Below the pieces are notes generated by a model. That model was not told the DNA's origin. It saw only the letters and a program-made list of their open reading frames with translations, and ran no database searches. Of a stretch of 64,000 bases of DNA, positions 8,389-59,171 are shown piece after piece. Within the stretch, counting starts at the first letter, position 1; each line of letters opens with the position of its first letter. The translations under genes were made by a program, and so were the position numbers. The stretch is from IMG/VR virus record IMGVR_UViG_3300036399_001951, positions 1 to 64,000 of that record; one strand, written 5' to 3'. The DNA comes from a virus.

Positions 8389-9132
8389 TTATATTTTATC
8401 AACAATATTTTTAATTTTTTGATCCTCGATTGAGAGATCAGCATCTGGATAATTTTCCAAGGCGTGCTTAATCCATGTAGAAAGAACTTGATTATATTGC
8501 TCTTGATTTATCTTTCCGACCATCAGAAATGGATATAGATATTTATCAAATATTTTATCTATTCTAACTCCTTGAGCTTTGGATCTTTCATATGCACCTT
8601 TTACCATAGATTCAACTTCATCTGGTAGAAGAAAATATTTAAAGCTTTTCTTTGCGCTTTTTCGATCTGAGTTAGAGCTTGGCCTAACTTTAAATGGCTC
8701 ACGATTCCAGCCTACCTGTAGAGTATGATTTGTTTCATGAGATATTATATCAATAAGTCTATAATTTAATTCCTCATATGATCCAGGTATTCTAGAAGGT
8801 TGCAATAATAAAGTAATTATTATTTCAGGAAGAATTAAATCTCCTTTGTTAATATATACATTTGCATCTATAGCGAATCCATATTGTCTAAAATTAATCT
8901 CTTCCCAAGAAAGAGAATTAAAGTGGGAATCATTATCAAAGTCAGGATCTTCCTCTAGTTTTAATTCAATAACTAAATCAAAATCTGGATTCCGATATTC
9001 AAGTTCTCTTATTTCAAGATATTCTCCGTTAGTTGACTTTATATTTTTTATAAGATTAATGACATCCAAAGAATATTTTGAAAAGTTGGATTCTCTCCCT
9101 TCTCCTATATATTCATTAAATGATTTTATCAT
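8389..9132 (-). CDS. Putative zinc metallopeptidase with capsid-targeting N-terminus
   Basis: Residues 1-11 (MIKSFNEYIGE) have the form of a T4 capsid-targeting sequence such as MKTYQEFIAE of T4 IPIII, ending in IxE, where the prohead protease would cut. Residues 132-136 are HETNH, a classic HExxH zinc site within DIISHETNHTLQVGWN. E172 or E174 (LPDEVESM) is a plausible third ligand. The rest is mixed alpha/beta with no family I can name. The ATG overlaps the stop of the next packaged-protein candidate by 4 nt, and both would be read from a late promoter at 9622-9630. I infer a head-internal protease ejected with the DNA; activity is unproven. Confidence 0.65.
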   Translation of the reverse strand: MIKSFNEYIGEGRESNFSKYSLDVINLIKNIKSTNGEYLEIRELEYRNPDFDLVIELKLEEDPDFDNDSHFNSLSWEEINFRQYGFAIDANVYINKGDLILPEIIITLLLQPSRIPGSYEELNYRLIDIISHETNHTLQVGWNREPFKVRPSSNSDRKSAKKSFKYFLLPDEVESMVKGAYERSKAQGVRIDKIFDKYLYPFLMVGKINQEQYNQVLSTWIKHALENYPDADLSIEDQKIKNIVDKI

Positions 9133-9602
9133 TTTTTTGGAATTATTACAAATGTGACCTCAACTTCTTCAGATCCAAATTTTCCATCACCGTAGAAAGT
9201 AACTTCAATATCATTTAGTTTGCTTCCAATCTGATCATTTACTACCTGTTTTCTAAATTTATCAAGTAGTATTTTACTGTCTGGCGGAAGAGTGGGTTTG
9301 TCACCTCCAACGTATTTAGAAATTGCTTTCTTTTTAACATCAATTAAGGAGTCAGATAATTTTAAATCTTTAGTGCTTATGATATTTGAAGTTAGCCATT
9401 TATCTAAATCGTCTTTAGATATTTCAAAGGTTGGATATTTTTTAGAACTAGTTCCATCTGGATATCTATGATCACCTTCTTCTCCATCTTCCATAAAAAT
9501 AAACTTATATTTATCTACTTTAGGAGCAGCAGCTGCATTTGGATCTCCGCCCATCATATCTTGCTCGTTAATAAAGGTAATAAATCTTTTTACGTGTTTC
9601 AT
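9129..9602 (-). CDS. Putative head-internal protein with capsid-targeting N-terminus
   Basis: A 157-residue protein starting MKHVKRFITFINE-Q, a hydrophobic capsid-targeting-like peptide ending INE, which fits the (I/L)xE cleavage rule of T4-type prohead proteases. A short Ala/Pro-rich linker (GGDPNAAAAPKVD) separates this tag from the body, as expected for a removable tag. The body is acidic with strand-rich ends (YKFIFMEDGEEGDH; IEVTFYGDGKFGSEEVEVTF). No family is recognised. It is co-oriented and overlapping with the HExxH protein gene, and is first in the unit behind a late promoter. Confidence 0.65.
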   Translation of the reverse strand: MKHVKRFITFINEQDMMGGDPNAAAAPKVDKYKFIFMEDGEEGDHRYPDGTSSKKYPTFEISKDDLDKWLTSNIISTKDLKLSDSLIDVKKKAISKYVGGDKPTLPPDSKILLDKFRKQVVNDQIGSKLNDIEVTFYGDGKFGSEEVEVTFVIIPKK

Positions 9603-9621
9603 TAAACCGATCGATGTTTTT

Positions 9622-9630
9622 ATTATTTAT
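9622..9630 (-). promoter_or_regulatory. Late promoter for the 9129-9602 / 8389-9132 pair
   Basis: The minus strand reads ATAAATAAT followed by AAAAAC, 19 nt before the ATG at 9602, the same spacing as before the sheath gene. It sits beside a 7-bp hairpin, ATCATCA/TGATGAT at 9629-9645. Unlike the flanking genes, this pair therefore looks late. Confidence 0.65.
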
Positions 9631-9662
9631 CATCAAGCTGATGATTTTAACGACGGTTTTAA

Positions 9663-11447
9663 CTAACCATCACAACTTAAGCAGTCAGGATCTGTTGCTC
9701 TAGCTGCAATATCTCCTCTTAATACAGATTCAGTTCTCATATAGTATAACGTCTTTATTCCCTGCTTCCAAGATTCCATGTGAACTTGATTAATCCACTT
9801 TGGAGAGCACTGAGATGGGAAAGCTAGATTAAGAGACACAGATTGATCTACATATTGCTGTCTGACACCTGCCTGCTTTACTAATTCTAATTGATTTATT
9901 TCTTTAAATGTTTTAAATACGTCTTTGACCCATTCTATTTCTTTATTATCAATTGCAGCTTGAGAGAATTCATTTTTATTAGTTATTTTTCCATTAACAA
10001 ATGCCCAATTATCTAATTCTTCTATGTCTTGAATTGATCCACCATCCTCTAATACTTTATCCCATGTTTCTTTAGTATTGATTCCAATCTTTTTCAAGAC
10101 TCTCTCTAAAGTAGGATTTTTACGAATAAAAGTTCCTTTTGCAGTTTGCTCAGTGAATACATTAGCTGCCCATGGCTCAATTCCAGGAGAAACATTTCCA
10201 CTTAGTTTAGAATTTGAAACAGTAGGAGCAATTGCTCTTAAATGAGTATTTCTCATGCCTGTTCCAACACACCATAGAGGCTCTCCATATTCATTAGCAA
10301 GATCCCTACTTGCTCTATCAGATTCTATTTTAATTTGAGAAAATATTTTTCTAGTTTCGAACTGAGCGATTAAGCCTTCAAATGGAATTCCTTTTTGCTG
10401 TAAATACGTATGCCATCCAAGTACACCTAGACCAAGAGCTCTTCCTTTTTCAGCACTTCTAACTGAATTTTCAAATCCTCTCATATTTTTAGCTCGTTGA
10501 ATGAATTCTTCTAGAACTCCATCTAAGAACCAAGTTGCTGTATAAATTAAGTCAGTGTCTTTCCATTCTTCATATTTTGCTAGATTTAAGGAAGATAAAC
10601 AACAAACAAATGAATGAGATTCGTCAGTGTGTAAAGTAATTTCTGAGCATATATTAGTCATAAATACTTTAAGGCCATTTTGTTTATATGCATCGGGATT
10701 ATGTTTATTAACATTGCCCTTAAACATAATATATGGCTCTCCAGTTGCCTTTCTTTTTTGAAGAACTTTACCCCACCTTCTTCTAGCTTCGGGATCTCCA
10801 TCTTCTAATTGTCTCATAAATTTATCAGATACAATTACGCACTGATGAACATTCAAGCATTGACGATTCATATCCCCCTTAGGTTCTCTGATTTCAATCC
10901 AATCATCGAAATCTCCGTGCTCAATATTTAAATTTATAGAGGCAGCTCCACGTCTAACTGATCCTTGATTAGTAGCTAATATTGTAGAATCGTATATCTT
11001 AGCAAATGGAACTACCCCATCTGAGGTTCCATTTTGAGATATTTTACTACCTGCTGATCTAATCATATTCATTCCAATCCCAACTCCACCACCATGTTTT
11101 GCAAGTAGCATCATCTCTAGATTCTTTCCACCTATTTCTTGAATTGAATCTCCAACGTCAATACCGAAACAAGAGATCGGAAGACCTCTATCTGTTCCAG
11201 TATTAGAAAGAACCGGGGTTGCTAAATTAAGCCATCCTCTCCAAATATAATCAAAGAATTTAGATGCCAAGTATGGCTTTCCAAGTCTGCGAGCAACGGC
11301 AGTTGATACTCTCCAATAAGCATCTTTAGGGGTCTCTCCATCTAAAAGATATCCTTTAGATATAGTTTTAACGTATACATCAGTATTTGCCCATTCTGGG
11401 AAATCGACATTCAATTCCCATCCTAATTCTTCTCCAAAATTTTTCAT
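9663..11447 (-). CDS. nrdA: Ribonucleotide reductase, class I, large (alpha) subunit
   Basis: Reduces NDPs to dNDPs together with NrdB. All key residues are visible: C93 (PISCFG) and C282/C283 (VCCLSS) as the redox pair, N265-C267-E269 (TNICSE) as the active-site radical centre, YYMRTES near 567-573 for the Tyr pair of the radical pathway, and C589-x2-C592 at the tail (DCLSCDG) for thioredoxin/glutaredoxin re-reduction. At 594 residues it is short: it lacks the N-terminal ATP-cone found in E. coli NrdA (761), so dATP overall inhibition is probably lost, which suits a phage needing constant dNTP supply. It lies 17 nt downstream of nrdB. Confidence 0.95.
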   Translation of the reverse strand: MKNFGEELGWELNVDFPEWANTDVYVKTISKGYLLDGETPKDAYWRVSTAVARRLGKPYLASKFFDYIWRGWLNLATPVLSNTGTDRGLPISCFGIDVGDSIQEIGGKNLEMMLLAKHGGGVGIGMNMIRSAGSKISQNGTSDGVVPFAKIYDSTILATNQGSVRRGAASINLNIEHGDFDDWIEIREPKGDMNRQCLNVHQCVIVSDKFMRQLEDGDPEARRRWGKVLQKRKATGEPYIMFKGNVNKHNPDAYKQNGLKVFMTNICSEITLHTDESHSFVCCLSSLNLAKYEEWKDTDLIYTATWFLDGVLEEFIQRAKNMRGFENSVRSAEKGRALGLGVLGWHTYLQQKGIPFEGLIAQFETRKIFSQIKIESDRASRDLANEYGEPLWCVGTGMRNTHLRAIAPTVSNSKLSGNVSPGIEPWAANVFTEQTAKGTFIRKNPTLERVLKKIGINTKETWDKVLEDGGSIQDIEELDNWAFVNGKITNKNEFSQAAIDNKEIEWVKDVFKTFKEINQLELVKQAGVRQQYVDQSVSLNLAFPSQCSPKWINQVHMESWKQGIKTLYYMRTESVLRGDIAARATDPDCLSCDG

Positions 11448-11464
11448 ATTATCTTTTTATTTAC

Positions 11465-12460
11465 TTACCATAGGTCTGACCAATCATCACCTTCATTTGC
11501 TTTTGAATAATCAGTTGGTCTAACTGCAAAGAAATCAGTGTGAGTATGTCCACCTGTTAAATGATAGAACCAATCTAAATTTTCAGCAGACTTAACGTCA
11601 AATGAGAATATAGGACCATATCCAATCTCATTTAATTTTTCATTTGCTCTTTTTCTAATAAAGTTCTTGAGATCTTCCTTTTTTAAATTCTCAAGATCTC
11701 CCATTTCAAACATTTTATCAATAAATTGTTCTTCCATATTAACCATTAAGGCCGCTGCCTCTTCAACTGCGTCCTTAACTGCTTCTCTAAGCTCTGGAAA
11801 TTCTTGACACATATGTCTAAATAGCCTACATCCCATTTTTGAATGAAGGGATTCATCTCTAACTGACCATTTCATTTGCTGACCAATTCCCTTTAAAAGA
11901 TTTCTCATTTGAAAGCTATATAAGACAGCAAAAGAAGAGTATAATGAAACTCCTTCAGCAAATGCTGAGAATATTGCTAGAGATCTAGCTACTTCTTCTC
12001 TTGCTTTTTCATTAGAAGACAAATCATTATGATCAAAATCTGAAGATACCCTGGTTAAAAATTCAAATTTTTCTGCGATAGTCGGCTCGTGTAAAAAAGC
12101 CTCGAAGTTTTCTAATCCAAGGGTTTCATTTAAATATGAATAAGCAGTTGCGTGTATAGTTTCCTGAGAACCGAAAATCATAGCCATCTGTTTTATCTCA
12201 TGTTTAGGAAACCATTTAGTAACCATTCCAGTCCAATAATCTGACACTGCGCATTCAGTTTGTGCAAATCCTAAAAGTATGTTTCCAACTAGATTTTTTT
12301 CATGAGAGAGAAGATTTTCGTTCCAATCTTTTATGTCTCCTTGCATTGAAATTTCAGTGTGGAGCCAAAATGCCTGAGCCTGTGGTAGCCAACCGTCGAT
12401 ATAGTATTCTGGAAATTCAAATGGTTTGTACTCTATTCGATGTGTAAAAAGCTTAGACAT
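11465..12460 (-). CDS. nrdB: Ribonucleotide reductase, class I, small (beta) subunit
   Basis: Carries the dinuclear metal centre and radical that start catalysis in NrdA. Ligands in order: E69 (QTECAV), E100 and H103 (SQETIH), E169 (AFAEGV), E203 and H206 (RDESLH). Y107, four residues after H103, is the expected radical tyrosine. The first ligand is Glu where E. coli has Asp84; the 31-residue spacing to E100 is identical to E. coli. The C-terminus (GDDWSDLW) is the acidic/aromatic tail that docks on NrdA. Length of 331 residues is normal. A promoter and a strong leader hairpin precede it; nrdA follows in the same transcript. Confidence 0.95.
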   Translation of the reverse strand: MSKLFTHRIEYKPFEFPEYYIDGWLPQAQAFWLHTEISMQGDIKDWNENLLSHEKNLVGNILLGFAQTECAVSDYWTGMVTKWFPKHEIKQMAMIFGSQETIHATAYSYLNETLGLENFEAFLHEPTIAEKFEFLTRVSSDFDHNDLSSNEKAREEVARSLAIFSAFAEGVSLYSSFAVLYSFQMRNLLKGIGQQMKWSVRDESLHSKMGCRLFRHMCQEFPELREAVKDAVEEAAALMVNMEEQFIDKMFEMGDLENLKKEDLKNFIRKRANEKLNEIGYGPIFSFDVKSAENLDWFYHLTGGHTHTDFFAVRPTDYSKANEGDDWSDLW

Positions 12461-12501
12461 TTAATTTAATTTTTTTTATTAATAAATTCTTGGAAGTCCA
12501 C

Positions 12502-12524
12502 GATGCCGCCAAACAGGCGGCATC
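12502..12524 (-). promoter_or_regulatory. Leader hairpin upstream of nrdB
   Basis: GATGCCGCC and GGCGGCATC form a perfect 9-bp G+C-rich stem with a 5-nt loop between the promoter and the nrdB ATG. No T-tract follows on the minus strand, so it looks like a 5'-leader stabiliser or regulatory element and not a terminator. Confidence 0.6.
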
Positions 12525-12536
12525 TAATGTATATAA

Positions 12537-12550
12537 ATTATACTAAATTT
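12537..12550 (-). promoter_or_regulatory. Early/middle-type promoter for nrdB-nrdA
   Basis: The minus strand reads AAATTTAGTATAAT, the same core as upstream of gp32, with TTATATA just downstream. A weaker ATAAATA word on the minus strand at 12583-12589 might add late expression. The rest of the 170-nt gap 12461-12630 shows nothing else. Confidence 0.58.
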
Positions 12551-12630
12551 GAACCCATATTATAAGAACCTATCATATAATTTATTTATCTCTGAAGGTC
12601 AAATTAAGGCTCTAGCTTGGATAATTTTTA

Positions 12631-13815
12631 TCAGCTTTCTACAAATTCAAATTTTAAATTCTTGTTGATTGGATCGACTTTATATACCTTAACTCTAGGA
12701 TATAAGTTTAGATTTTTTTGAAGATCTTTTCTTTTTAAGGTAACTTCAAATGATTCATTTTCAATTTGAATTTTTATTGAATTATTTTTTGAGTCGATCT
12801 CATAGTTAAAAATTTTATTTTCTGTTTTTTCTCTTAGATCGCTCCATCTTCTTTTTTCAGAATCAACATCATCCTCTTTAAGAGTTAATACCACTCTATA
12901 TTGAGTTCCTTTTTTAACTACATTCTTAACATAAATGTCTATTTTATCTCCAGCCCTATATTGTTTTCTAGACTCATCATAGTTTTCAAATTCAGAGGAG
13001 TGAATTAAACCAGTGTAATAACTTTCAAATTCCACAAAGATTCCAAAATCATATGGATTATTAGTTAATTTTCCTGAGTATTTTTGACCAAATTTTAATT
13101 CAGTTATCATTTGAGGAAGAGAATGCTCAATATATTTCTTATAGGAAAGAATGAATAGATCATTCGACTGATCATAATTGTCTACCATAATATTCATAGA
13201 CTTTCCAATTAGATCTTTAAAGTCTCTAATAACATTGGCAGCTGCATGTGAACCTGGGATAAAACACTCAACAGTATCTTTGTATGTAGCAATATATCCA
13301 CCTTTAATTAACTTACAGATTTTAACTTCAAACCAAGTATTTTCTTCAAGATGACTGAATAATTCTTTTTTATAGTTAATTGAGGTACATTTTCTTTCAG
13401 ATCCAGTATATCCTAGGTTTTTATCAAATCTAGTGATCATTATATTAAATATGACGTTTTCTCCTCTAGCTAAAGTATCTATTTCTCCAGAATACTCCTT
13501 AAATGGTAAATCAATATTAATCTTTGAAAAAGGCTCTTCGACTGTAATTATTTTAGTATCGAAACATATGCTAGTTGCTCTAACTTCATATATAGAATCA
13601 ACATTTAAATCTTTACTAACATGGGAAGGAAGTCCATTTTTATTTTCATATGCCCTCATTGCATTGTACAGATCTTGAGCATATGGTTCCATGCAATATA
13701 TTTTAACCCTGGCTTTTTTATCTTCCTCTGTTAATACAACACTATCATTATATTTTCCATTTTTAGAAAACAATAGGTCTAAGTCTTCTAAATAAATTTT
13801 TTCTTCGCGGTTCAT
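12631..13815 (-). CDS. S1-domain RNA-binding protein (ribosomal protein S1-like)
   Basis: A 394-residue protein with at least one clear S1/OB domain at about 243-320 (LKFGQKYSGKLTNNPYDFGI, then GLIHSSEF and RAGDKIDIYVKNVV) and a weaker one at about 155-230 (TWFEVKICKLIKGGYIATYK then ECFIPGSHA). The N-terminal 110 residues and the basic C-terminus match nothing I know. S1 domains bind single-stranded mRNA. A phage S1-like factor could steer ribosomes to phage messages, relevant in a genome without Shine-Dalgarno leaders, or mimic host S1. It has its own promoter and lies downstream of the GroEL terminator. Confidence 0.78.
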   Translation of the reverse strand: MNREEKIYLEDLDLLFSKNGKYNDSVVLTEEDKKARVKIYCMEPYAQDLYNAMRAYENKNGLPSHVSKDLNVDSIYEVRATSICFDTKIITVEEPFSKINIDLPFKEYSGEIDTLARGENVIFNIMITRFDKNLGYTGSERKCTSINYKKELFSHLEENTWFEVKICKLIKGGYIATYKDTVECFIPGSHAAANVIRDFKDLIGKSMNIMVDNYDQSNDLFILSYKKYIEHSLPQMITELKFGQKYSGKLTNNPYDFGIFVEFESYYTGLIHSSEFENYDESRKQYRAGDKIDIYVKNVVKKGTQYRVVLTLKEDDVDSEKRRWSDLREKTENKIFNYEIDSKNNSIKIQIENESFEVTLKRKDLQKNLNLYPRVKVYKVDPINKNLKFEFVES

Positions 13816-13834
13816 AATTATTATTTTAATATAG

Positions 13835-13846
13835 ATTTATACTTAA
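13835..13846 (-). promoter_or_regulatory. Early/middle-type promoter for the S1-like gene
   Basis: The minus strand reads TTAAGTATAAAT, 19 nt before the ATG at 13815. It is one base off the TATAAT form of the same element. Confidence 0.5.
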
Positions 13847-13880
13847 TTATGTATTAAAGGTTTTTATTTTTTTTAAATAA

Positions 13881-13905
13881 AAAAAGGTCCGTGAAGGACC
13901 TTTTT
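13881..13905 (-). terminator. Intrinsic terminator downstream of groEL
   Basis: AAAAAGGTCC and GGACCTTTTT form a 10-bp stem with loop GTGAA. On the minus strand it is followed by a long T-rich run, and it lies 20 nt past the groEL stop. Confidence 0.85.
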
Positions 13906-13924
13906 ATTTTAGATAGATTTGGTT

Positions 13925-15550
13925 TTATTTCTCAGCCGGCTTCACAATTGCCTTTTCCATTAGCACGCATTCAGTCGTAATCATTAAACCTGAAATTGAG
14001 GCTGCATTTTCAATAGCTGCTCTGGTTACTTTAGCAGGGTCAATGATTCCTGATTTTAACATATCTACATATTCTCCAGTTCTAGAATTATATCCAGATG
14101 TATATTCATCTTTTAAATCCTTTGAAATTACTTCTGGATTTTTTCCAGCGTTAAGAATAATAGTGTTAAATGGATCTTTACATGATTCTAATAGAATAGA
14201 TGCTCCTACTTTTTCATCTCCTATAAAATCATTTGAAAATGATTTTTCTATTTCGGCTGATATTTCGATTGCTGCTCGATATAAAGCAATTCCTCCACCT
14301 GGAAGAATACCTTCTTCTACTGCAGCTTGTGTAGCTCCTAAAGCATCATCAATTCGATCTCTTTTTTCTTTTATCTCAATGTCAGTATATCCACCAACTT
14401 TGATTATTGCAACTCCTCCTTCTAATTTAGAAAGTCTCTCCTTTAAAATTAATTTCTCAGATTCATTATCTTGATTCTCAATTTGAGACTTGATTTCATC
14501 TACTCTAGCTTTAACTGATTCCTGATCTCCACCTCCATTTATAACGGTAGTCTCTTCAGCTGAAACGGTTACTCTCTCAGCAGATCCTAAAATCTCAGCT
14601 ACACTATTCGGGTTAATATTTTGAATATCATGTCCCATTGCTTCAGATAAAACCGTCCCTCCAACGATAGCAGCAATATCTTTTAATTGCTCAGTTTTAA
14701 GTTGACCATATCCAGGAGAATTAACTGCAGTTACATCAAGAACTCCGTTTGCCTTATTCATTACCAGAGTCTGTAGTGCATCACCTTCAATATTATTTGA
14801 GATCACTAATAGAGGTCTCTTAACGTGATTAGAGTATTCAAGAAGATGAACTAGGCCCTTTATTCCTTTAATCTTTCCATCATAAATAAAGATAACTGGA
14901 TTTTCTAGGTGAGCCTCCATTTTAGCAATGTTATTTATAAAATAAGGAGAAAGATATCCTGATTTAAATTGCATTCCTTTTACTAGATCTAAATATGTCT
15001 CATGAGTATTACTTTCGTCTACCGTAATTACTCCATCAAATCCTACTTCATCCATTGCTCTTGCGATAATAGATCCAATGTTACTGTCTCCATTTGCAGA
15101 GATTGTGGCTACCTGCTCGATTTGCTCAACTCCATTTATTTTAATACTATTTTTTTGAAGATGATCTTTGATTATGACAAGAGATTTATCGATACCTGAT
15201 TTAATCTCCATTGGATCAAATCCAGCTTCAATCATTTTAATACCTTTAGTTAGGATAGACTGCGCTAAAACGGTCGCGGTTGTTGTTCCATCACCTGCGG
15301 CCCTTGCAACATTAGACGCTACTTGTTTAACCATTTGTGCTCCAAGATTTTCTTCTGGATCCTCTAGAAAAACTTCTCTAGCTACAGATACTCCATCTTT
15401 AGTTATTGCAAATTGATTAACTCTTCCAAGTACCACGTTTCTACCCTTCGGTCCCAGAGTTACTTTAACTGAGTTTGCTAGCTTGTCAACTCCGGATTTT
15501 AATTTGTTTCTTGATTCTGAGCTGAATGTAATTTCTCTCGGATTATTCAT
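13925..15550 (-). CDS. groEL: Chaperonin GroEL (Hsp60)
   Basis: A full-length 541-residue ATP-dependent folding chamber. Diagnostic blocks: KVTLGPKGRNVVLG at 29-42, ITKDGVSVAREV at 49-60, GDGTTTATVLA at 86-96 including the ATPase Asp at 87 as in E. coli, and ILPGGGIALYRA in the equatorial domain near residue 410. The Gly-Gly-Met tail of bacterial GroEL is replaced by a short MEKAIVKPAEK end. Phage GroELs are known in some large phages but are rare in T4-like ones, which normally supply only a co-chaperonin. The gene has its own promoter and terminator and is 8 kb from the phage groES. Confidence 0.96.
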   Translation of the reverse strand: MNNPREITFSSESRNKLKSGVDKLANSVKVTLGPKGRNVVLGRVNQFAITKDGVSVAREVFLEDPEENLGAQMVKQVASNVARAAGDGTTTATVLAQSILTKGIKMIEAGFDPMEIKSGIDKSLVIIKDHLQKNSIKINGVEQIEQVATISANGDSNIGSIIARAMDEVGFDGVITVDESNTHETYLDLVKGMQFKSGYLSPYFINNIAKMEAHLENPVIFIYDGKIKGIKGLVHLLEYSNHVKRPLLVISNNIEGDALQTLVMNKANGVLDVTAVNSPGYGQLKTEQLKDIAAIVGGTVLSEAMGHDIQNINPNSVAEILGSAERVTVSAEETTVINGGGDQESVKARVDEIKSQIENQDNESEKLILKERLSKLEGGVAIIKVGGYTDIEIKEKRDRIDDALGATQAAVEEGILPGGGIALYRAAIEISAEIEKSFSNDFIGDEKVGASILLESCKDPFNTIILNAGKNPEVISKDLKDEYTSGYNSRTGEYVDMLKSGIIDPAKVTRAAIENAASISGLMITTECVLMEKAIVKPAEK

Positions 15551-15572
15551 ATTTAATTTATTTTTTTATGAT

Positions 15573-15585
15573 ATTATACACTTAA
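15573..15585 (-). promoter_or_regulatory. Early/middle-type promoter for groEL
   Basis: The minus strand reads TTAAGTGTATAAT, the common element with two extra bases between AGT and TATAAT, 22 nt before the ATG. Confidence 0.5.
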
Positions 15586-15599
15586 TTGAAAAATAAGTT

Positions 15600-16337
15600 T
15601 TAAAATACAAAGTTATTTTTCTCTAATTCGGATCTAAGTTGACTTCTTAAATCTAGTGCCCTGTGTAATTTATATCCAGATCCACTTAATGAAATCAATA
15701 ATCCCCCTTCAGTTTCGAATCCTGCCTCTTCTAACATTAATCGATATGTGCTAATTTGTAAGCTGTAACTGTTGACGTGATTATCCCAAAGATTATTAAA
15801 TGGAGAAAACATTTTATTTCTTTTTCCCTTTGCGTGGTCGTCATGGGTAAAGTCCTCATTAGTTTTCCAATCTCCAACGTAGTACTTTTTATTAAGCTCA
15901 AATATGATGTCAATTGTCCCAGCAATACCCCACTTTTTAGAAAAAACTCTAAATTCTTGAGCAATAGGATTCATTTTTTTTAACTTCTCCTCGTATACCT
16001 GCTTAAAGAGTTCTACTCGACCGTTAACAATTAAATCTTCTGGGGCCTCTGGATTTACGCCATTATAAAAATCTTCAATCCATTTATGAGCCTTAGTTCC
16101 TCTAACCCCAGATTGTTTCCATTCATTAATAACTTCACTTTCAGTTATTCCTTTTGATTTGGCAACATATTTAGCTACACTAGGATCAAATGGTTTTTTA
16201 AACTGACTGATAAATCCGGAGACGGGCTCGAATATTTGGCTTAATAGACCAGATTCAGGATCTACATATGTATAGGAATGAGCTGTCTCATCGAATTTAA
16301 AATTCGGATCCCTAAAATATTCTAATTTTTCTATCAT
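15600..16337 (-). CDS. PD-(D/E)XK nuclease, RecB/Cas4-like
   Basis: A 245-residue nuclease. The RecB-type core is readable: GTKAHKWIE at 80-88 (the conserved His/Glu helix), GTIDIIFELN at 140-149 with D143, and YVGDWKTN at 153-160 giving the D-x-K pair (D156, K158). By family it would be a DNA exonuclease or endonuclease used in recombination, end processing or host DNA breakdown. It overlaps the downstream end of the DEDDy exonuclease gene by 1 nt (TAATG-type junction), so the two nucleases are probably made together. No helicase domain is attached. Confidence 0.82.
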   Translation of the reverse strand: MIEKLEYFRDPNFKFDETAHSYTYVDPESGLLSQIFEPVSGFISQFKKPFDPSVAKYVAKSKGITESEVINEWKQSGVRGTKAHKWIEDFYNGVNPEAPEDLIVNGRVELFKQVYEEKLKKMNPIAQEFRVFSKKWGIAGTIDIIFELNKKYYVGDWKTNEDFTHDDHAKGKRNKMFSPFNNLWDNHVNSYSLQISTYRLMLEEAGFETEGGLLISLSGSGYKLHRALDLRSQLRSELEKNNFVF

Positions 16338-17053: not shown

Positions 17054-17064
17054 TTATTTTGTTT

Positions 17065-18015: not shown

Positions 18016-18033
18016 ATTTCTTTTTATGTTTTG

Positions 18034-18042
18034 ATTATTTAT
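18034..18042 (-). promoter_or_regulatory. Late-type promoter for the sugar dehydrogenase gene
   Basis: The minus strand reads ATAAATAAT followed by CAAAAC, 18 nt before the ATG at 18015. It lies in the gap between the small membrane protein and the dehydrogenase. Confidence 0.5.
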
Positions 18043-18045
18043 GTA

Positions 18046-18180
18046 CTATTGATTTTTCCATTCTTTCCATGTGTCAAAGTCTTTTAGTTTTTCAAGGTCT
18101 TTCATAAACTCTGTATTGAGTCTCACTGCTATAGCCCACATTAAAAATGCTCCAAACAAAAATGCGATTACAATTTCCAT
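18046..18180 (-). CDS. Small single-pass membrane protein
   Basis: A 44-residue protein: MEIVIAFLFGAFLMWAIAVR is one hydrophobic segment, followed by a charged helix (FMKDLEKLKDFDTWKEWKNQ). I chose the ATG at 18180. A longer frame to 18267 exists but its extra 29 residues are only the T arm and body of the adjacent tRNA-like RNA read as protein. The topology (short N-terminus out, charged tail in the cytoplasm) resembles small phage membrane proteins, but no function can be assigned. Confidence 0.6.
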   Translation of the reverse strand: MEIVIAFLFGAFLMWAIAVRLNTEFMKDLEKLKDFDTWKEWKNQ

Positions 18181-18196
18181 AGTGTTTAATTTTTTG

Positions 18197-18422: not shown

Positions 18423-18462
18423 TATTTTACTTTAAAATACTAATTTTGTTTTAATAATTAAA

Positions 18463-18663: not shown

Positions 18664-18674
18664 GACTTTGATAT

Positions 18675-45113: not shown

Positions 45114-47555
<2,442 letters not shown>

Positions 47556-47919: not shown

Positions 47920-47928
47920 ATAAATAAT
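47920..47928 (+). promoter_or_regulatory. Late promoter for the 225-aa fibre gene
   Basis: ATAAATAAT followed by AAAAAACTTTT, 15 nt before the ATG at 47944. Confidence 0.62.
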
Positions 47929-47943
47929 AAAAAACTTTTTTAA

Positions 47944-48621: not shown

Positions 48622-48635
48622 AATAAAGAATAAAA

Positions 48636-52408
<3,773 letters not shown>

Positions 52409-52409
<1 letters not shown>

Positions 52410-52996
52410 TGGCAGTAACGACAGTAACAACAGCAATGGCAGGAGCAATCAACTACACTAGGGTAGTCGATTCTTCATCGGACTGGGCATCAGTTCCGAA
52501 TAGTACTTATTTTTATGATAAATCAAATAAACTAGTCTATTTTAAAACCTCAGCTGCTCAGGTTTTACCTATATTTTCTGAATATAATTATGATTATGTT
52601 AGTGTTCCTATCAGTTCGGCTCAAATATTAAGCATGGGAACTTCTCCCATTTCTTTATTAGCCGCACCTGGGGTCGGGTTCTATTATGATATTCCTAAAG
52701 TAATTCTGGAATATACTCACATTTCAACCGCATATACATACCCAGGAGGAGCAAAAAGATTAGGGATCGGATATGCTCAGAGTGCAGTAATAAATGCTGA
52801 TTTATTGTCCGATACAAATAATAGAGTTTGCATTATTGAACCTACTAAACATCAAATTGAAGGTAGTAATACCATTCATAATACTATAGAATTAAATCGA
52901 GCACTTTCATTCAGTACTGATAATTTTTCAGACCCTGCCACTGGGAATGGAACTATACTTGCTAAGATATGGTATAAAATCAGGAGTTTCGGTTAA
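52409..52996 (+). CDS. Virion-associated protein, probable fibre head or capping protein
   Basis: 195 residues, beta-rich (FYDKSNKLVYFKTSAAQVLP; SAVINADLLSDTNNRVCIIE), starting at the A of the previous stop codon (TAATG), so translationally coupled to the 1158-residue fibre. It may be the fibre tip, a trimerisation cap or a decoration protein. The end overlaps the convergent methyltransferase gene by 17 nt. No family recognised. Confidence 0.58.
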
Positions 52997-53711
52997 ACTC
53001 AGCTAGGAAGATCTCAGAATTATTTCCAACTGGCACGATTGAATATCCAATATTATTCAAGAATTGAAATAACTCAGATCTCAATTTAGACGCAGGTATC
53101 ATGTGCTCTCTAGTTTCTCTCCATTCGTCCCAGCTTTCAAATAAAATAGGAGGCCAATTATTTTTTTCTAGAGTCTTTAATGCTCCTTTAAGAACATGTA
53201 TTTCGTGACCCTCTACGTCAATCTTAATTAGGCCAATATTCTCTATATTTAGATCATCTAATCTCTTTAGAGGCAACTTGAGTGTACCTAATGATGACTC
53301 TTCTCTCTTTTCTCCTAGAAAAGTAAATCCATTTCCTCCGCCGTCTTTAGATCTAACATAATAAGTGGCTTCACCTTCATCAGATGATAATCCGAAACTG
53401 TAGGCTGTTATCTTATGATTTAAATCTTTTAAAAAAATATTTGCACACATACAGTTATAAACCTCCGGGTTACACTCAAAGGAATAAGTATGTTTTGCAT
53501 GAGGAGCAATCGTCCAGCTATAAGTACCAATATGAGCACCGATGTCTACAAAGTTAACTTCTGAATTTATAAAATTATCAATACACCATTGAATATGTCC
53601 CCATTCAGGTATGCCTGAACTGAACATCCAGGCTCCAACATTAGGGTCATTTATAAAAAAGGATTCAGGATCTAATTTAATGAATTGTTTTTTAGGATTT
53701 AGTATATACAT
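52980..53711 (-). CDS. FkbM-family SAM-dependent methyltransferase
   Basis: 243 residues. VNFVDIGAHIGTYSWTIAPH (52-71) is the SAM-binding motif I, SFECNPEVY (77-85) motif II, and IKIDVEGHEIHVLKGA (162-177) the FkbM signature. Family members usually O-methylate sugars or polyketides, often as caps on surface glycans. It lies directly downstream of the glycosyltransferase gene (5 nt) and converges on fibre genes, suggesting it methylates a glycan put on a virion protein or on host surface material. The substrate is not readable from sequence. Confidence 0.85.
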   Translation of the reverse strand: MYILNPKKQFIKLDPESFFINDPNVGAWMFSSGIPEWGHIQWCIDNFINSEVNFVDIGAHIGTYSWTIAPHAKHTYSFECNPEVYNCMCANIFLKDLNHKITAYSFGLSSDEGEATYYVRSKDGGGNGFTFLGEKREESSLGTLKLPLKRLDDLNIENIGLIKIDVEGHEIHVLKGALKTLEKNNWPPILFESWDEWRETREHMIPASKLRSELFQFLNNIGYSIVPVGNNSEIFLAEFNRNS

Positions 53712-53716
53712 GATTT

Positions 53717-55687
53717 TTATTTTAGATAGAACATTTTATTATAGAAATAGGTAAGAGGGACCCTGATTGATTTTGAGGTACTGTCCCAAGTTGAATAATT
53801 AAATTCTAATTCTTCGTCATTAACTGAATTTATAGAGAGACAATATTCGATCGGTTCTCCTTCAAAAGAGAATGGAGAACTGTGCATCACAGGCTTACCG
53901 TTCTTTTCCATAATTATTAAATAATGAAGATATGTCCTTGGGTTTTCATAGTTAACTGAATGAACTACTATGTATAATAGACCACCTATCTCAATTGCAG
54001 AAGTGGATCCTCTAAAAAAAGAAAATAAGACTGGGACTTCAAATTTTCTAGCCTCACTCATACTTGGATATGAATAGACTGTAACTGGATTCCAACCATA
54101 AATAATTTCATTCTCATTCAAAAATACCCAGTTCTTTTCGCAGCCTGATCCTGTTGGACTATCGAATACCTGATCAACTATAATCTTTTTATTCTCAACA
54201 TCATATATTCCAGAACATATTCTATTTCCTTGATTAGGACTTATAAATTGGGAAGTTGCCAGGAATTTAATCGATCCATCCTCTGCCTTAAATAATCTAA
54301 GATCTTCAATGCCTTCTACTCTTGCACCCTCATGTATTGGAACTCTATATTCTTCTTGCATGATCCATTTTCCATTAAGCAAATTTAGTGTTTTAACGGG
54401 TTCTTTTGCAAGTTCCTCCCAACCCATATGTCTTCCGTCAGATTGATAGTGATATGCTCCATTAGATCGATCTATTTTATAATTAACTAGTCTAATATTA
54501 TGCAAATCTGAATCTATTTTACAATGAGATGAGTTTATAAAACCATCTGGAATTATAGAAGGATCTATTTCTATCGATTCTATCTTAAATCCATCTTTAG
54601 TGAGAGTATTTGCGTAAAACTTTAAATTATTAAATACTGATCCTATTGTATGATTAGCTGGATTATCTGATAGATATGAAATTGATATTCTAGAGCCTAA
54701 ATTTCTAGTAGATGGATTTAAATAATAATATAGGATCGACATCTCATATTCAAATAATTTATTCTCATATAAAGAATAATTCACAAAGAGCCTGTCCTCT
54801 TTAGGATAAGTTATATCTTTTCCAAGATTGTAGAATTTAAGTGCGTCTTGATGTTTTCCAATCTCTCTGAATTTTTTACACATCTCATATAGAGCCTCGG
54901 CTCTTCCTGAATGATATTCATGTCCTTTAATTGCCCATTCTGCGGCTTCATCCAATTTATTTAATTGAGAATAGCAGTTACTAATCATATAGTAACTGTA
55001 CCATACTTCTTCATACCATCCTCCCATTAAAACTCTTCTCTTATAAAATTCGATTGCCTTTTCAAAATTCTGAGTATCTTTATGGGATTGAGCTAAGTAG
55101 AATACATATCTTTCATTATTAGGCTCGTCAATTAATCCCTGCGTTAATAATTTGATGTCACGTTCAAACTTATCTTCCTTGCTTCCACCATCTCCAATAT
55201 CATTAATTAATATCGATTCTAAGAGTTTTCCTCCTACATTACAATTATCCGCAGCTAAATATTCATGAGTAACTCCAACTGATTTCCATCTATATTTAGA
55301 ATTCATTACGCGAATATTAGTGTACTTAATTCCAGGATTTTGTTGAAACACCTCGTAATGAGAATAATTGGTATCTAATTCAGATTTATTAAATCCCTCA
55401 TTAATTAGGACCATATCTGCGTCTATAGTTAAGATCCAATTGCACGAAGATTCTCTAGCTAAATCAAGAGCCTCAGTTCGATTATGGCCGAAGTTCTTCC
55501 ATTCTCGATCGATCACTCTTCCCTTTATTCCGCGATCATTAAAAAATTTAATTATTATTTCTTGGGTTCCATCGGTCGATCCAGTATCTACTATACAATA
55601 TTCATCAATTATTCCCACTGTACTAGCCAAGCATCGCTCAATGACTCTGCTTTCGTTTTTAACGATCATACACAAAACTATTCCCAT
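53717..55687 (-). CDS. Three-domain glycosyltransferase (GT2 + TPR + beta-propeller)
   Basis: 656 residues. Residues 1-140 are a GT-A family 2 domain: LCMIVKNES at 5-13, IVDTGSTDGT at 32-41, and the DxD motif as IDAD at 88-91. Residues about 185-285 hold TPR-like helices (YVFYLAQSHKDTQNFEKAIE; ALYEMCKKFREIGKHQDALK). Residues about 390-656 resemble a five-bladed glycosidase-like propeller (ARVEGIEDLRLFKAEDGS; CEKNWVFLNENEIIYGWNP). TPR-linked GTs often modify proteins on Ser/Thr. Beside Thr-rich collagen-like fibres and an FkbM methyltransferase, a role in fibre glycosylation is the leading inference. Confidence 0.82.
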   Translation of the reverse strand: MGIVLCMIVKNESRVIERCLASTVGIIDEYCIVDTGSTDGTQEIIIKFFNDRGIKGRVIDREWKNFGHNRTEALDLARESSCNWILTIDADMVLINEGFNKSELDTNYSHYEVFQQNPGIKYTNIRVMNSKYRWKSVGVTHEYLAADNCNVGGKLLESILINDIGDGGSKEDKFERDIKLLTQGLIDEPNNERYVFYLAQSHKDTQNFEKAIEFYKRRVLMGGWYEEVWYSYYMISNCYSQLNKLDEAAEWAIKGHEYHSGRAEALYEMCKKFREIGKHQDALKFYNLGKDITYPKEDRLFVNYSLYENKLFEYEMSILYYYLNPSTRNLGSRISISYLSDNPANHTIGSVFNNLKFYANTLTKDGFKIESIEIDPSIIPDGFINSSHCKIDSDLHNIRLVNYKIDRSNGAYHYQSDGRHMGWEELAKEPVKTLNLLNGKWIMQEEYRVPIHEGARVEGIEDLRLFKAEDGSIKFLATSQFISPNQGNRICSGIYDVENKKIIVDQVFDSPTGSGCEKNWVFLNENEIIYGWNPVTVYSYPSMSEARKFEVPVLFSFFRGSTSAIEIGGLLYIVVHSVNYENPRTYLHYLIIMEKNGKPVMHSSPFSFEGEPIEYCLSINSVNDEELEFNYSTWDSTSKSIRVPLTYFYNKMFYLK

Positions 55688-55731
55688 ACTTATTCCTGTT
55701 TAATTATTATATAAGAATTATCAAAATAGTT

Positions 55732-56280
55732 TTAATCAAAATTAATATCTAGATCAAAATCAAAGTATGCGAATTTAGCAGTAAAAGTACCAAAGTTTGG
55801 AGTATTTGAACTATATGAAAGTTTTAGAGAATCTTGAGATTTAAGAATTGGTTTATTGAATACCACATTAGATACTAAATATCCTTCGTTATTTAACATG
55901 CTTAATGTCATGGGTGAAAGCACTTGATTTTTATTTTCAAAATCTAAGTAATTAAGAGCATTGTCCAAAAAGATCCAATAATTTAGATAAGCATCTGCCA
56001 TTTTAAAGGTTAGAGTAAATTCCCTAGTGAATAGATCTGGGATTGGAGTCGAATTTTTATACTCCTGTCTTTTACCTAATAATCGGGTTTGGGTAACAGG
56101 CTGCATTGACCACCCTGAGAAATCTATTCCCTGTACAGTAGAAGACATAAAATCCTCTATTGTATCATAGGGCAAGATTAGACTTTGATAGTATTTCTTA
56201 TATTTTTCCTTAACCTTTTCTGCAAAAAAATCAGGTGGAAATAGAAAAACAAATCCGTTATTTCTAGCGTTTAAAATCAT
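55732..56280 (-). CDS. Tail-tube-fold virion protein
   Basis: 182 residues. The segment [20 protein letters not shown] then [20 protein letters not shown] and [19 protein letters not shown] has the beta-strand order and spacing of tail-tube proteins (gp19/gp48-54 type fold), and the [19 protein letters not shown] segment could be the interring loop. It could be the tail tube itself or an initiator/baseplate tube protein. It sits at the end of a minus-strand run, away from the sheath gene. The T4 gp19 length is 163. Moderate confidence in structural role, low in exact position. Confidence 0.55.
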
Positions 56281-56285
56281 TTCTT

Positions 56286-56567
56286 TTATTTTTTATTTTT
56301 CTTAGCCTTTCTAGCTTTAGCTGCTAGATCCTTATCCGCTCCTCCCCAGGTACCAGAAGATTTAGTTGCAAAAGAATTAACTCTAGCCATTGCCCATTGA
56401 TGTTGACCTACTCCAGGACGATGTCCTGTTTTCCATGCAGCAAGTCCTCTATTGTAAACCTGTTTCAAGATTCCCTTTGGAATCCCAGTTTTTTCAGATT
56501 TATTTTTTAAAGCAGTATCTGAATTTGAAGATTCTACTAAGTATTCTAAAAATGTAAAGATTTTCAT
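56286..56567 (-). CDS. Small basic protein with capsid-targeting N-terminus
   Basis: 93 residues. [13 protein letters not shown] (1-12) is a capsid-targeting-like peptide ending LVE. The body contains [20 protein letters not shown] then [20 protein letters not shown], a conserved-looking motif I associate with small phage and giant-virus proteins of unknown function (possibly DUF5824). The C-terminus is Lys-rich ([12 protein letters not shown]) and could bind DNA, fitting a packaged internal head protein. The stop of the upstream Cys-rich gene overlaps its ATG by 4 nt. Confidence 0.65.
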
Positions 56568-57241
56568 TTTTTATTTAATTGTTTTTTTACTTCCCTTCTA
56601 ACGCTCTCCATCTTTTTAGCGTATGCTGGATTATCGTTTCGATTAAATACTATCTGTTGGTTTAGGCTTCCGGTAATCTTACGCATATCTCCTCCTCTAG
56701 TTCTAATTAACCATTTTGCAAGTTCTTTTACCCCAAGTTTTTTAAATTTTCCATTAGCATCTGGTGCATCTGAATCATGCCAGTCTGGAGAGTTTTTAGT
56801 TTTTCTTTTTTCATCGACTTTTCCTTCGTTCTTACTTTGCCAATTTGCTGAAACTGAATCTTCTTCAATAGGTCCTCCTGCCGCCCAAGTATAGCACGTA
56901 CGAGCAGAGTGACATTTAAAGTGATGCATCCAACAATAACCAAGTTTTCCATCCGGATCTGAAACCTCCCCTGGCATACAATCTTTCATTCTTGGTGAAA
57001 TATCAAAAGCTACACAATTTCCACAATTAGATTGCTTTGCAACCTCAGGTTCAGTATTCCATTTTTTAGCATACTCGTCCCAATATTTTTCGTCATTGAG
57101 GTTTAGTGGTCCATATTTAATATAGTCTGCCTCTATTGCTTCGTTACGATTTTGAGTATTTACCTTTAGATCTTGAGTAGCTAACGGACAAGAGTTCGTA
57201 CCTTGTTCAAGGATTAAATATTCATTAAAATTTAATATCAT
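56564..57241 (-). CDS. Cysteine-rich metal-binding protein with capsid-targeting N-terminus
   Basis: 225 residues. MILNFNEYLILE-Q (1-12) ends ILE, a candidate prohead-protease site. A Cys/His cluster follows: SNCGNCVAF near 71-79, a Cys at about 88, then GYCWMHHFKCHSARTCYTWA, giving at least six Cys and two His, likely a zinc or Fe-S site. The C-terminal part is basic ([31 protein letters not shown]). No enzyme family recognised. It overlaps both neighbours by 4 nt. I infer a head-internal, ejected protein. Confidence 0.62.
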   Translation of the reverse strand: MILNFNEYLILEQGTNSCPLATQDLKVNTQNRNEAIEADYIKYGPLNLNDEKYWDEYAKKWNTEPEVAKQSNCGNCVAFDISPRMKDCMPGEVSDPDGKLGYCWMHHFKCHSARTCYTWAAGGPIEEDSVSANWQSKNEGKVDEKRKTKNSPDWHDSDAPDANGKFKKLGVKELAKWLIRTRGGDMRKITGSLNQQIVFNRNDNPAYAKKMESVRREVKKQLNKK

Positions 57242-57798
57242 TTTCCAAACATTTTTTCAAAATTCTTAGTGTGTTTACTCTTTTGAGTTCCCCATCGTTT
57301 ACCTGTTTTTTGATTATAATCAGCTTTCCATTCTCCTTTGGGATCACTTGTGTATGCTGTTGGGTCATCATCATCTTTGTTAGCATGTTTCTTAATCTCG
57401 TTTTTCATTGCTTTAGCATCTTTAGTTAAATATACCGGATTAATCTTTTTTTTTTCAGTTACATATTGAGAATAACTAAGCACCTCGGCCTTTTCATTTA
57501 TTTTATTAGATTCCTCCCTAATAATTAATTCACCTAATACTTCCAATCTACCAACTTCCCTCTGAAATTCTATCTGAGTCATAGAAGTAGATATTTTTTT
57601 ATAAGTTTCATTAAATTCCTTTTTTGCCCCGGCTAAATCAAATTTTCCAGCGGCTGCTTTTTTATAGTAAGGAAGTTTAACTTTAAAATGGTGCCAAGTT
57701 AAAAGGGCAAGTCCTCCCTTTTCCTTTGCATTATTTACAATCTTTTCAGCACCGGCCTCTCTGGTATCTGCAAATGATTTAAATTCATTGTTTTCCAT
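57238..57798 (-). CDS. DUF5661-like phage protein
   Basis: 186 residues. LALLTWHHFKVKLPYYKKAA (30-49) and MTQIEFQREVGRLEVLGELI (73-92) match the pattern I associate with DUF5661, a small helical domain in phages. There is no targeting peptide at the N-terminus, but SYSQYVTE at 108-115 resembles one internally, before a basic C-terminal half (KKKINPVYLTKDAKAMKNEI). It overlaps the cupin-like gene by 14 nt and the Cys-rich gene by 4 nt. Function unknown; the context suggests a virion or packaging role. Confidence 0.6.
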   Translation of the reverse strand: MENNEFKSFADTREAGAEKIVNNAKEKGGLALLTWHHFKVKLPYYKKAAAGKFDLAGAKKEFNETYKKISTSMTQIEFQREVGRLEVLGELIIREESNKINEKAEVLSYSQYVTEKKKINPVYLTKDAKAMKNEIKKHANKDDDDPTAYTSDPKGEWKADYNQKTGKRWGTQKSKHTKNFEKMFGK

Positions 57799-58051
57799 TT
57801 TCTTTTATTATTTTTAGGGTCAAATCTCCAGTTCCTTTAATTAACCGATGCCAAACCCCTGATTTAATTTCAATTTCATTAATTATTACCTCAGGCAATT
57901 GATCTTCAATTTGTATCATCCAATCAGTTTCTTTAATTGAGCTTATAATTCTATCTTCTGCATCTCGATGCCAAGTTAGGTCATCTGAATCAGAATCTTC
58001 ATCAAACTCTCGTATAACATAATTATCTATTTCAGTATCAAAATAAATCAT
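57785..58051 (-). CDS. Small cupin-like protein
   Basis: 88 residues. DLTWHRDAEDRIISSIKETDW (24-44) and IEIKSGVWHRLIKGTGDLTLKI (61-82) give two His/Glu-rich beta motifs like those of a minimal cupin barrel, where GVWHR would be the second metal-binding strand. Such short proteins occur in phages and giant viruses. It overlaps both neighbouring genes by 4 to 14 nt and belongs to the same operon as the capsid-targeted proteins, but lacks the targeting peptide. Confidence 0.55.
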   Translation of the reverse strand: MIYFDTEIDNYVIREFDEDSDSDDLTWHRDAEDRIISSIKETDWMIQIEDQLPEVIINEIEIKSGVWHRLIKGTGDLTLKIIKENGKQ

Positions 58052-58593
58052 TTTTTAATGTTTAGATTTTTAACTATTGATTTTATTTTAGGATCGCTAT
58101 TTTGTATTAATCTCTTTGCAACATTAACTGCCTCTCTTGCAGCTTTAATTCCAACTTCTTTATTTTCATAATTGAATATTACATTATATTCTCCTTTTTT
58201 TCTAGTTTCTCTAGTTCTTCCAAATCCAGTATCATCCCCGGCAAGAGTTTGTAATTCTAAAGCAATGTGCTCAATTATATGTCCCAACCAAGTTCCCCTC
58301 TTAACTCTTGAGAAAAATCCTCCCTTTCTTCCAATTGAACATCTATGATCATCCATCGATGGCAAATATTTCTTAAGGTTATCATAGAAATTAGGGATTT
58401 TATTCGATGGAAATTTTTCCCATTCTCCTAAATCTAAAATCATATGAATTAATTTATCTTTAGAATGATGCCATTTATTTTTACCTTCAATTGTTTTTAT
58501 AGACGTTATTTTTAAATCGCTGATGTTTGGTAAATTGACCTTAGTTTCAGATCTATTCGATTCAAATAAACTATATGCTATTAAATATTTCAT
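58048..58593 (-). CDS. Cyanophycin-synthetase N-domain-like protein with capsid-targeting N-terminus and HxxEH motif
   Basis: 181 residues from the ATG at 58593, which overlaps the upstream stop (TAATG); a longer frame exists but breaks this coupling. MKYLIAYSLFE-S (1-11) ends LFE, a capsid-targeting-like tag. Residues 83-150 (HRCSIGRKGGFFSRVKRGTW, then LGHIIEHIALELQTLAG, GFGRTRE and EYNVIFNYENKEVG) match closely, from memory, the N-terminal domain of cyanophycin synthetase CphA. HIIEH at 105-109 is an inverted zincin motif (HxxEH), in line with reports of peptidase-type activity in that domain. No ATP-grasp or ligase domain is present. Inference: a packaged, ejected hydrolase. Confidence 0.72.
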   Translation of the reverse strand: MKYLIAYSLFESNRSETKVNLPNISDLKITSIKTIEGKNKWHHSKDKLIHMILDLGEWEKFPSNKIPNFYDNLKKYLPSMDDHRCSIGRKGGFFSRVKRGTWLGHIIEHIALELQTLAGDDTGFGRTRETRKKGEYNVIFNYENKEVGIKAAREAVNVAKRLIQNSDPKIKSIVKNLNIKK

Positions 58594-59171
58594 TACCAAT
58601 ATCCCGGATAAGTTTTTCCTCCCCAAAGATGAGCATATCTATTAATTCTACAGGCCCAATAGCCAGCCATCGTCCGATCCTTTTTTTCAGCACATCGATG
58701 TCGAGCTGCAAAACTTTTTCTAGCCTTTGGATTACTTACCTTTGCGCTTAATCCAGGGTCTCCAAACTGTATCTTTTTAATATTTCCAGTAGAAGGATTC
58801 TTAACGTATACTACGTATTTTTTAGATCCCCCACGCATAGGTCTTCCTAATTCAACTTCCCTGCCTTGATATTTGGCTTCTTCAATTGAAAAATCCTCTA
58901 GTGGCATATCTAACGCAACTTCAACTCCTTGATATATGCCAGTTTTACCAAGATCTGTGGTCTCAAATAAATAACCATCGAGCCTTCCTAATTCAAGAGA
59001 TCTCATTTCAAAAAGCATTCTGGCCTCTACTAATAGTTTAATATGAGCAGAGCTGCCCGGCCTATATACGGATTCAGTAATCGACATTCCTTGATCAACG
59101 TGATATTGCAAAGAATCTGAGATTTTAGATTCTCCTAGGTATCTGCTAAAGCTTTTAATTCTAGTTATCAT
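58593..59171 (-). CDS. DUF5872-like protein with capsid-targeting N-terminus
   Basis: 192 residues. MITRIKSFSRYLGE-S (1-14) ends LGE, again matching the (I/L)xE rule. The C-terminal 80 residues carry ELGRPMRGGSKKYVVYVKNP, then KKIQFGDPGLSAKVSNPKAR and KSFAARHRCAEKKDRTMAGY-W, a basic domain with conserved Cys/His/Trp that I associate with DUF5872 of phages and giant viruses; it could bind nucleic acid. The middle is acidic. It overlaps both neighbours (4 nt upstream, 1 nt downstream). Likely a head-internal DNA-associated protein; function unproven. Confidence 0.65.
   Translation of the reverse strand: MITRIKSFSRYLGESKISDSLQYHVDQGMSITESVYRPGSSAHIKLLVEARMLFEMRSLELGRLDGYLFETTDLGKTGIYQGVEVALDMPLEDFSIEEAKYQGREVELGRPMRGGSKKYVVYVKNPSTGNIKKIQFGDPGLSAKVSNPKARKSFAARHRCAEKKDRTMAGYWACRINRYAHLWGGKTYPGYW

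Follow-up and report, generated by a model that had tools for sequence, protein, structure and literature searches.

Tagged genes in the viral record

The viral record IMGVR_UViG_3300036399_001951 has a length of 136.7 kb, and the window analysed here is its first 64 kb (64,000 nucleotides). Two gene clusters of the window, 8389–9602 and 56286–59171, encode proteins that begin with short N-terminal peptides, here called tags, ending in (I/L)xE. It had been proposed in a preliminary description of the window that six proteins carry capsid-targeting peptides like those of bacteriophage T4. The six N-termini were confirmed at the positions given, each encoded on the minus strand. Both clusters are real but are an undercount, as about 22 open reading frames (ORFs) of the record carry a tag of the form aromatic-xx-aromatic-(0-5)-[I/L/V]xE, most of them at 79–115 kb, outside the window, and the product of 57238–57798 has a similar site in its interior. 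The proteins behind the tags are mutually unrelated, as had been described, with the pair 103959/106367 as the sole exception. The record belongs to a large uncultured virus of bacteria with kinship to phage T4. Its tail protein matches phages of Bacteroidota and phage PAU, and terminase relatives of the record were found at 34 loci.

The N-terminal scan of the whole record that the preliminary description recommended was done with the pattern ^M.{1,9}[FYW]xx[FYW].{0,5}[ILVMF]xE. It matches 22 of the 165 ORF starts of the record versus 6 of 446 internal-Met pseudo-starts (about 1.3%; binomial 1e-15, a descriptive value since the pattern was written after the tags were seen). The pattern misses the window tag MKYLIAYSLFE, and about three of the 22 matches look spurious: 11465 (ribonucleotide reductase beta), 118076 and perhaps 99102. 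The last of these (99102–99410) is a small protein with a hydrophobic stretch that starts with MKKLNFKLFKDILME/K (a slash follows the final residue of a tag or cleavage motif); the related record G002 has a similar N-terminus at 45597, and the start of 99102 may be a tag or a coincidence. The DNA ligase at 90069 (MKIKEIFDEIRLE) was considered as a tagged protein and rejected, having an ordinary ligase N-terminus. In the 22 curated tags, which have 11–21 residues, P3 is Ile, Leu or Val in 21 of 22, P1 is Glu in all by construction of the list, and the residue after the final Glu is mostly Ser, Gln, Ala or Gly. The T4-type length and ending, an N-terminal peptide of about 10–19 residues closing with (I/L)xE, were found.

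A looser N-terminal test for the core motif alone was applied to ten related records, where 103 of 1189 N-terminal 26-mers match versus 174 of 9239 internal 26-mers (p 7e-30); the individual counts include 18/238 versus 32/1992 in G001 and 9/54 versus 9/566 in G005. This test replaced a 12-residue position-specific scoring matrix made from the scaffold repeats described below, and the choice was made after the matrix had failed as a tag detector. The matrix failed because tags and repeats share a 7-residue core only, the flanking positions not being common to both. Tags with tryptophan, [FY]xxWx{1,4}[ILV]xE, are enriched 14-fold at N-termini (27/1189 versus 13/7940) and resemble W-x-P-[IVL]-L-E, a segment that the capsid proteins have close to their N-terminus.

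Table 1. Tags, tagged proteins and related sites of the window, followed by tags from the rest of the record
Feature	Position	Strand	Evidence or remark
Tag MKHVKRFITFINE/Q of ORF 9129–9602	9564..9602	-
157-aa tagged protein, no assigned function	9129..9602	-	adjoins 8389 in relatives looked at
Tag MIKSFNEYIGE/G of ORF 8389–9132	9100..9132	-
247-aa tagged protein, HExNH motif, putative zinc metallopeptidase	8389..9132	-
HETNH (HExxH) motif, residues 132–136 of ORF 8389–9132	8725..8739	-
Tag of ORF 56286–56567	56532..56567	-
93-aa tagged protein, DUF5824 domain	56286..56567	-	PF19141 E 7.5e-19; phrog_3041
Tag MILNFNEYLILE/Q of ORF 56564–57241	57206..57241	-	G009 homologue MSILKFNQYLILE/K, 81%
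225-aa tagged Cys/His-rich protein, no assigned function	56564..57241	-
Internal tag-like site VLSYSQYVTE/K between two domains of ORF 57238–57798	57454..57483	-
186-aa two-domain protein, possibly cut at internal site	57238..57798	-
88-aa cluster member without tag	57785..58051	-	related domain fused into G001 138964
Tag MKYLIAYSLFE/S of ORF 58048–58593	58561..58593	-	homologues MKYLKSYKLFE, MKYLMTYRVFE
181-aa protein: tag, ~16-residue linker, stand-alone cyanophycin-synthetase N domain	58048..58593	-
HIIEH (HxxEH) motif, residues 105–109 of ORF 58048–58593	58267..58281	-
Tag MITRIKSFSRYLGE/S of ORF 58593–59171	59130..59171	-	homologues MKTRITSFSQFIGE/G, METRLKGFTQFVNE/S
192-aa tagged protein, phrog_7595 domain, no assigned function	58593..59171	-	phrog_7595 E 1.4e-12
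Tag MNSFSTWQQLNE/G	83338
Tag MNIKNYGNYIAE/A	84453
Tag MNFNLYLNRLYE/V	86040		domains PG-binding and M23; NlpC/P60 and chitinase match more weakly
Tag MTIIKGFRDWSGQIYE/S	97480		DUF2201 metallopeptidase
Tag MWIKKYQDWNRVFE/D	108254		GDSL esterase
Tag MKWIKNYQRWGQVSE/D	109114		NlpC/P60
Tag MARFIKNFRQFVNE/A	111385
Tag MRVKKFSTFIRE/S	114159

Match to T4 capsid-targeting sequences

In the tag of T4 IPIII, MKTYQEFIAE, residues 4 and 7 are the main determinants of targeting and residues 8 and 10 those of processing; Asp at residue 10 permits targeting but not processing (PMC9026906). These four control residues are the four defining positions of the tag motif in the record. In T4 itself (62–112 kb, 64 ORF N-termini), IPII and IPIII are the sole matches of the strict motif. 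The major capsid protein gp23 of T4 carries FGSFLTE/A at residues 59–65, and the tag core motif is that of both the T4 capsid-targeting sequence and the gp23 cleavage site. The aromatic pair has the Y4/F7 spacing of IPIII in four of the six window tags; the other two, and the tryptophan tags, keep aromatic residues at other spacings.

The tagged proteins resemble T4 IPI, IPII and IPIII in having a short N-terminal peptide that ends in (I/L)xE, unrelated bodies and a gp21-family protease in the lineage, and they share the aromatic-pair spacing of IPII and IPIII (YxxFIAE/A). They differ from T4 in number, about 22 here versus three in T4 (plus Alt, with its own propeptide), in the addition of tags of the tryptophan and MKYLxxYxLFE types, and in the scaffold of tag-like repeats that is fused to the protease in relatives.

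Protease, scaffold and capsid protein in related phages

Capsid, portal and protease genes were not recognised in the 136.7-kb record. A search of the record for Peptidase_S77 gave no match and was uninformative, as the control panel gave none either, and the question was moved to relatives with TerL proteins 61–62% identical to that of the record. One of these, the 207-kb relative G001 (terminase 62% identical), has protease and capsid genes at 52–57 kb. Nothing in the record corresponds to this head region; its collinearity with G001 covers most of the latter between 85 and about 176 kb. The best reading of the record is therefore that of a fragment from which the head genes are missing. In the preliminary description the absence of a gp21-like protease was named as evidence against packaging. 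The protease was not found in the record, which would be a fragment lacking the head genes, and is encoded by the relatives, so that this counter-evidence seems not to apply.

The product of G001 52877–54856 matches Peptidase_S77 (PF03420) over the cut-off and the head maturation protease family phrog_207 (E 2e-38), and the H and S motifs of the relative's protease align with those of T4 gp21 and PAU gp151. Farther downstream, the G001 protein consists of serial repeats, among them IQYTEYVAE, LEFSDYLAE and IGYTEYIVE; in the relatives the scaffold is fused to the protease. Repeats were counted in 33 related loci, two of which end within the repeats. The 31 loci with the whole region have 9–11 motif copies, mostly with 14-residue spacing, versus 0.1–0.2 in shuffles. 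Tags and repeats also agree at positions that the pattern leaves free, with Ser or Thr at P6 and Glu, Gln, Asn or Asp at P5. The preliminary description also recommended comparing the tags with the cleavage sites of scaffold and capsid proteins; for the scaffold the motif matches, in relatives and not in the record itself. It is plausible that the 14-residue period represents two heptads of a helical, perhaps coiled-coil, scaffold. The capsid protein encoded beside the relative's protease is a gp23 homologue (PF07068, E 2e-34), and every copy read has PLFE/[QNS] around residue 54. No prior report of a scaffold of tag repeats was found among the titles and abstracts listed by literature searches of an open-access library.

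In the 636-kb phage LR756504 (L128:5632-7926) a scaffold-like ORF adjoins the capsid gene and has at least 11 Y/FxxY[ILV]AE repeats, mostly with 14-residue spacing.

Tag conservation and phage PAU

In the tagged families 36 of 52 distinct homologue N-termini match the motif versus 13 of 461 (2.8%) in untagged control families; the related loci are mutually dependent, and the counts are meant as a description of conservation, with no claim to significance. The tag of 9129–9602, a protein with no Pfam or PHROG match, is kept by the pattern in six of seven homologues with 31–75% body identity, and the seventh, MKHIKPYTQLLLE/Q, which the pattern misses, ends in LLE. Homologues of 8389–9132 reach down to 38% identity, and the tag is retained at six of their seven distinct N-termini. 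A seven-sequence alignment of its tagged members has S4, F5 and E11 invariant, an aromatic residue at 8 and Ile or Val at 9. The whole 56–59 kb cluster is found near the terminase gene in only one relative, a 100%-identical contig; other relatives carry some members elsewhere or none.

A similar situation exists in the isolate Sphingomonas phage PAU (JQ362498), where 20 of 294 ORFs start with MK[TSG][LI]xx[LM][YF]E or close variants versus 0 of 1305 internal Met positions. The tagged bodies are again unrelated, and among them are gp152, annotated as the scaffold, and the products of four out of five genes labelled as internal capsid proteins (Fisher p 8e-5). N-terminal sequencing of the PAU capsid protein indicates that proteolysis shortens it from 585 to 520 residues (PMC5646251), and the processing point is within one residue of LME64/N. 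The head gene cluster of PAU is like the system described here in that a single N-terminal tag (MKT[LI]xxLYE/[AS] in PAU) recurs on numerous unrelated proteins, scaffold and annotated internal capsid proteins included, and in having a gp21-like protease and a gp23-type capsid protein. It is unlike it in that the PAU tag has no aromatic pair and gp152 carries the tag once, at the N-terminus, without 14-residue repeats. Another tag dialect is seen in a 436-kb phage contig (L087), where adjoining genes start with MKYLKLFE, MKHLKTFE, MKYLKSYKLFE (twice) and MKYLKKYIQFISE.

Cargo proteins

The product of 58048–58593, read from the ATG at 58593 (in the longest ORF a TTG lies farther upstream), matches PF18921 with E 2.2e-44 and 150.5 bits against a curated cut-off of 27. 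Its residues 28–170 align with PDB 7lg5 (E 1.9e-38). The N domain of cyanophycin synthetase has a cryptic metallopeptidase-like site (PMC9262961). The synthetase residues H57, C59, R70, H79, E82 and H83 (PMC9262961) correspond to H83, C85, R96, H105, E108 and H109 of the phage protein, and synthetase E87 is also conserved. The phage protein is like the N domain of cyanophycin synthetase 1 over the whole domain, with catalytic and metal residues kept, and unlike the synthetase in standing alone behind a tag and linker, with no synthetase domains. No such domain was found in 25 of 26 related records, and thus it is accessory. In the 436-kb phage a homologue is encoded next to another gene that bears the same tag, MKYLKSYKLFE.

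A second putative enzyme, the zinc metallopeptidase candidate 8389–9132, has H132, E133, N135 and H136 invariant in seven aligned homologues. The downstream acidic ligand expected of a zincin beside HExxH was found as well, E172 and E174 being invariant in the same seven. In an AlphaFold model (pLDDT 85) residues 1–14 are mostly below 50 and most of the body is above 80; the body is thus modelled with confidence, and the tag that extends from its front with little. A fold search with this model gave no PDB match at E <= 0.001, only noise.

The first domain of 57238–57798 is a separate N-terminally tagged protein in G001 (200293), and its second domain follows LLE/E at the end of the larger G001 protein 138964. 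This larger protein (138964–140082, L047:2464-3582) consists of a domain related to window 57785–58051, LFE/S, an unmatched domain, LLE/E and the C-terminal domain of 57238. Together these arrangements suggest polyprotein-like cargo.

Outside the window, a tagged MoxR-type AAA ATPase, a Gln/Gly-rich protein and a tagged DUF2201-type metallopeptidase adjoin at 93708–98604. The clusters had also been placed behind late promoters, which did not hold up: TATAAATA occurs 7 times in the window versus 17 expected, and two sites near 60.5 kb are on the plus strand, upstream of 60617 and not of the minus-strand cluster. The record encodes two sigma-70-type factors, at 65614–66243 (L001:1614-2243) and 100508–101416 (L002:17008-17916), of which one is small and the other, having regions 1.2, 2 and 4, is RpoD-like; with them the phage may redirect host transcription. 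A GroEL-like chaperonin is encoded at window 13925–15550 (G001 counterpart 62%).

Interpretation

The tags are read as T4-type capsid-targeting and processing signals, with a probability of about 85%, because they are enriched at N-termini, conserved, and share the T4 core motif, and because relatives have the protease, the capsid protein and the repeat scaffold. Judged by sequence, the tags would be cleaved and the tagged proteins would be found in the virion. How would the tags be recognised? To our knowledge, the way in which a T4 capsid-targeting sequence is recognised by the core has not been established. The best current mechanism would be docking in which the tags mimic scaffold repeats. 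Each tag would act in the prohead like one repeat of the core scaffold, which in this lineage is fused to the gp21-family protease and has repeats of 14 residues that follow the pattern aromatic-x-x-aromatic-[I/L/V]-x-E. Proteins with a tag would co-assemble into the core while the shell forms, and the protease would then cut after [I/L/V]xE. The cuts would destroy the scaffold repeats and release the cargo, which would stay in the head during DNA packaging and probably be delivered with the DNA. Ejection of the cargo and action on the host are plausible and speculative, at roughly even odds; some of the cargo might equally well remain in the head.

The core may further be a polymer of tag-like repeats for which one N-terminal repeat suffices, an open platform for twenty or more unrelated cargo proteins, many of them enzymes, with tryptophan tags (FxxWxxVxE) that copy the capsid segment W-x-x-[IVL]-L-E and with some polyprotein cargo holding internal cleavage sites. 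This broader proposal is tentative, its chances being somewhat short of even.

Several observations weigh against reading the tags as T4-type signals. The protease, scaffold and major capsid genes were not found in the window's own record, and the match of tag to scaffold was made in relatives. The numerous tryptophan tags are about two residues off the spacing of the scaffold repeats. The AlphaFold model of the protease–scaffold protein has long helices over the repeats with low confidence (pLDDT 43) and is uninterpretable beyond that. The basis of the PAU labels "internal capsid protein" is not stated in the record, and the labels could themselves have been derived from the tags. The G009 homologue of 8389 has no tag though its neighbour keeps one, and in some homologues Asp or Asn replaces the final Glu. 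A related case is the NUDIX protein at 81778 (MIKGFDEYSSSS), which has no xE ending where relatives have KKFSDFVNE/S and VDFNSFINE/G. The substituted homologues and this NUDIX protein may fit a "targeted but uncut" state.

The alternative that survives best accepts the tags as targeting and processing signals and takes the cargo for core or internal structural proteins, resident in the head or discarded as fragments, in place of ejected effectors. In T4, core proteins such as gp22 and gp67 undergo cleavage and largely disappear (PMC9026906), the PAU scaffold gp152 is itself tagged, and several tagged proteins are large with no assigned function. However, cargo with enzyme-like domains and intact catalytic motifs (cyanophycin-synthetase N domain, HExxH, NlpC/P60, M23, GDSL esterase) would be odd in a passive core, as would a NUDIX protein with a clear tag in relatives, and this alternative is a serious one that is nevertheless doubtful. 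It is improbable that the tags address another place, such as the membrane, the phage replication compartment or the tail, with a superficial likeness to T4. Short amphipathic N-terminal peptides are common as localisation signals, and the doubtful tag of 99102 is on a protein with a hydrophobic stretch, but the motif is that of the scaffold repeats and the T4 gp23 cleavage site, nearly all tags end in [ILV]xE before a small or polar residue, and the identified tail, baseplate and replication proteins are untagged. Chance similarity picked by eye does produce single lookalikes (the ligase at 90069, the spurious pattern matches 11465 and 118076) and is very improbable for the set, given the strong enrichment over internal-position controls, the tags kept in diverged homologues versus 2.8% in controls, and the specificity of the motif in T4.

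In phages phiKZ and SPN3US the ejection (inner body) proteins with propeptides are likewise a large set that is packaged in the head and processed by a prohead protease (PMC5694885, PMC10052503). Their protease and cleavage motifs are other than those of the T4 type.

Tandem copies of the tag motif in the scaffold offer a simple and testable answer to the question of how a targeting sequence recognises the core. In uncultured large phages the tags give a readout, from sequence only, of candidate head-packaged proteins, most of them without known function.

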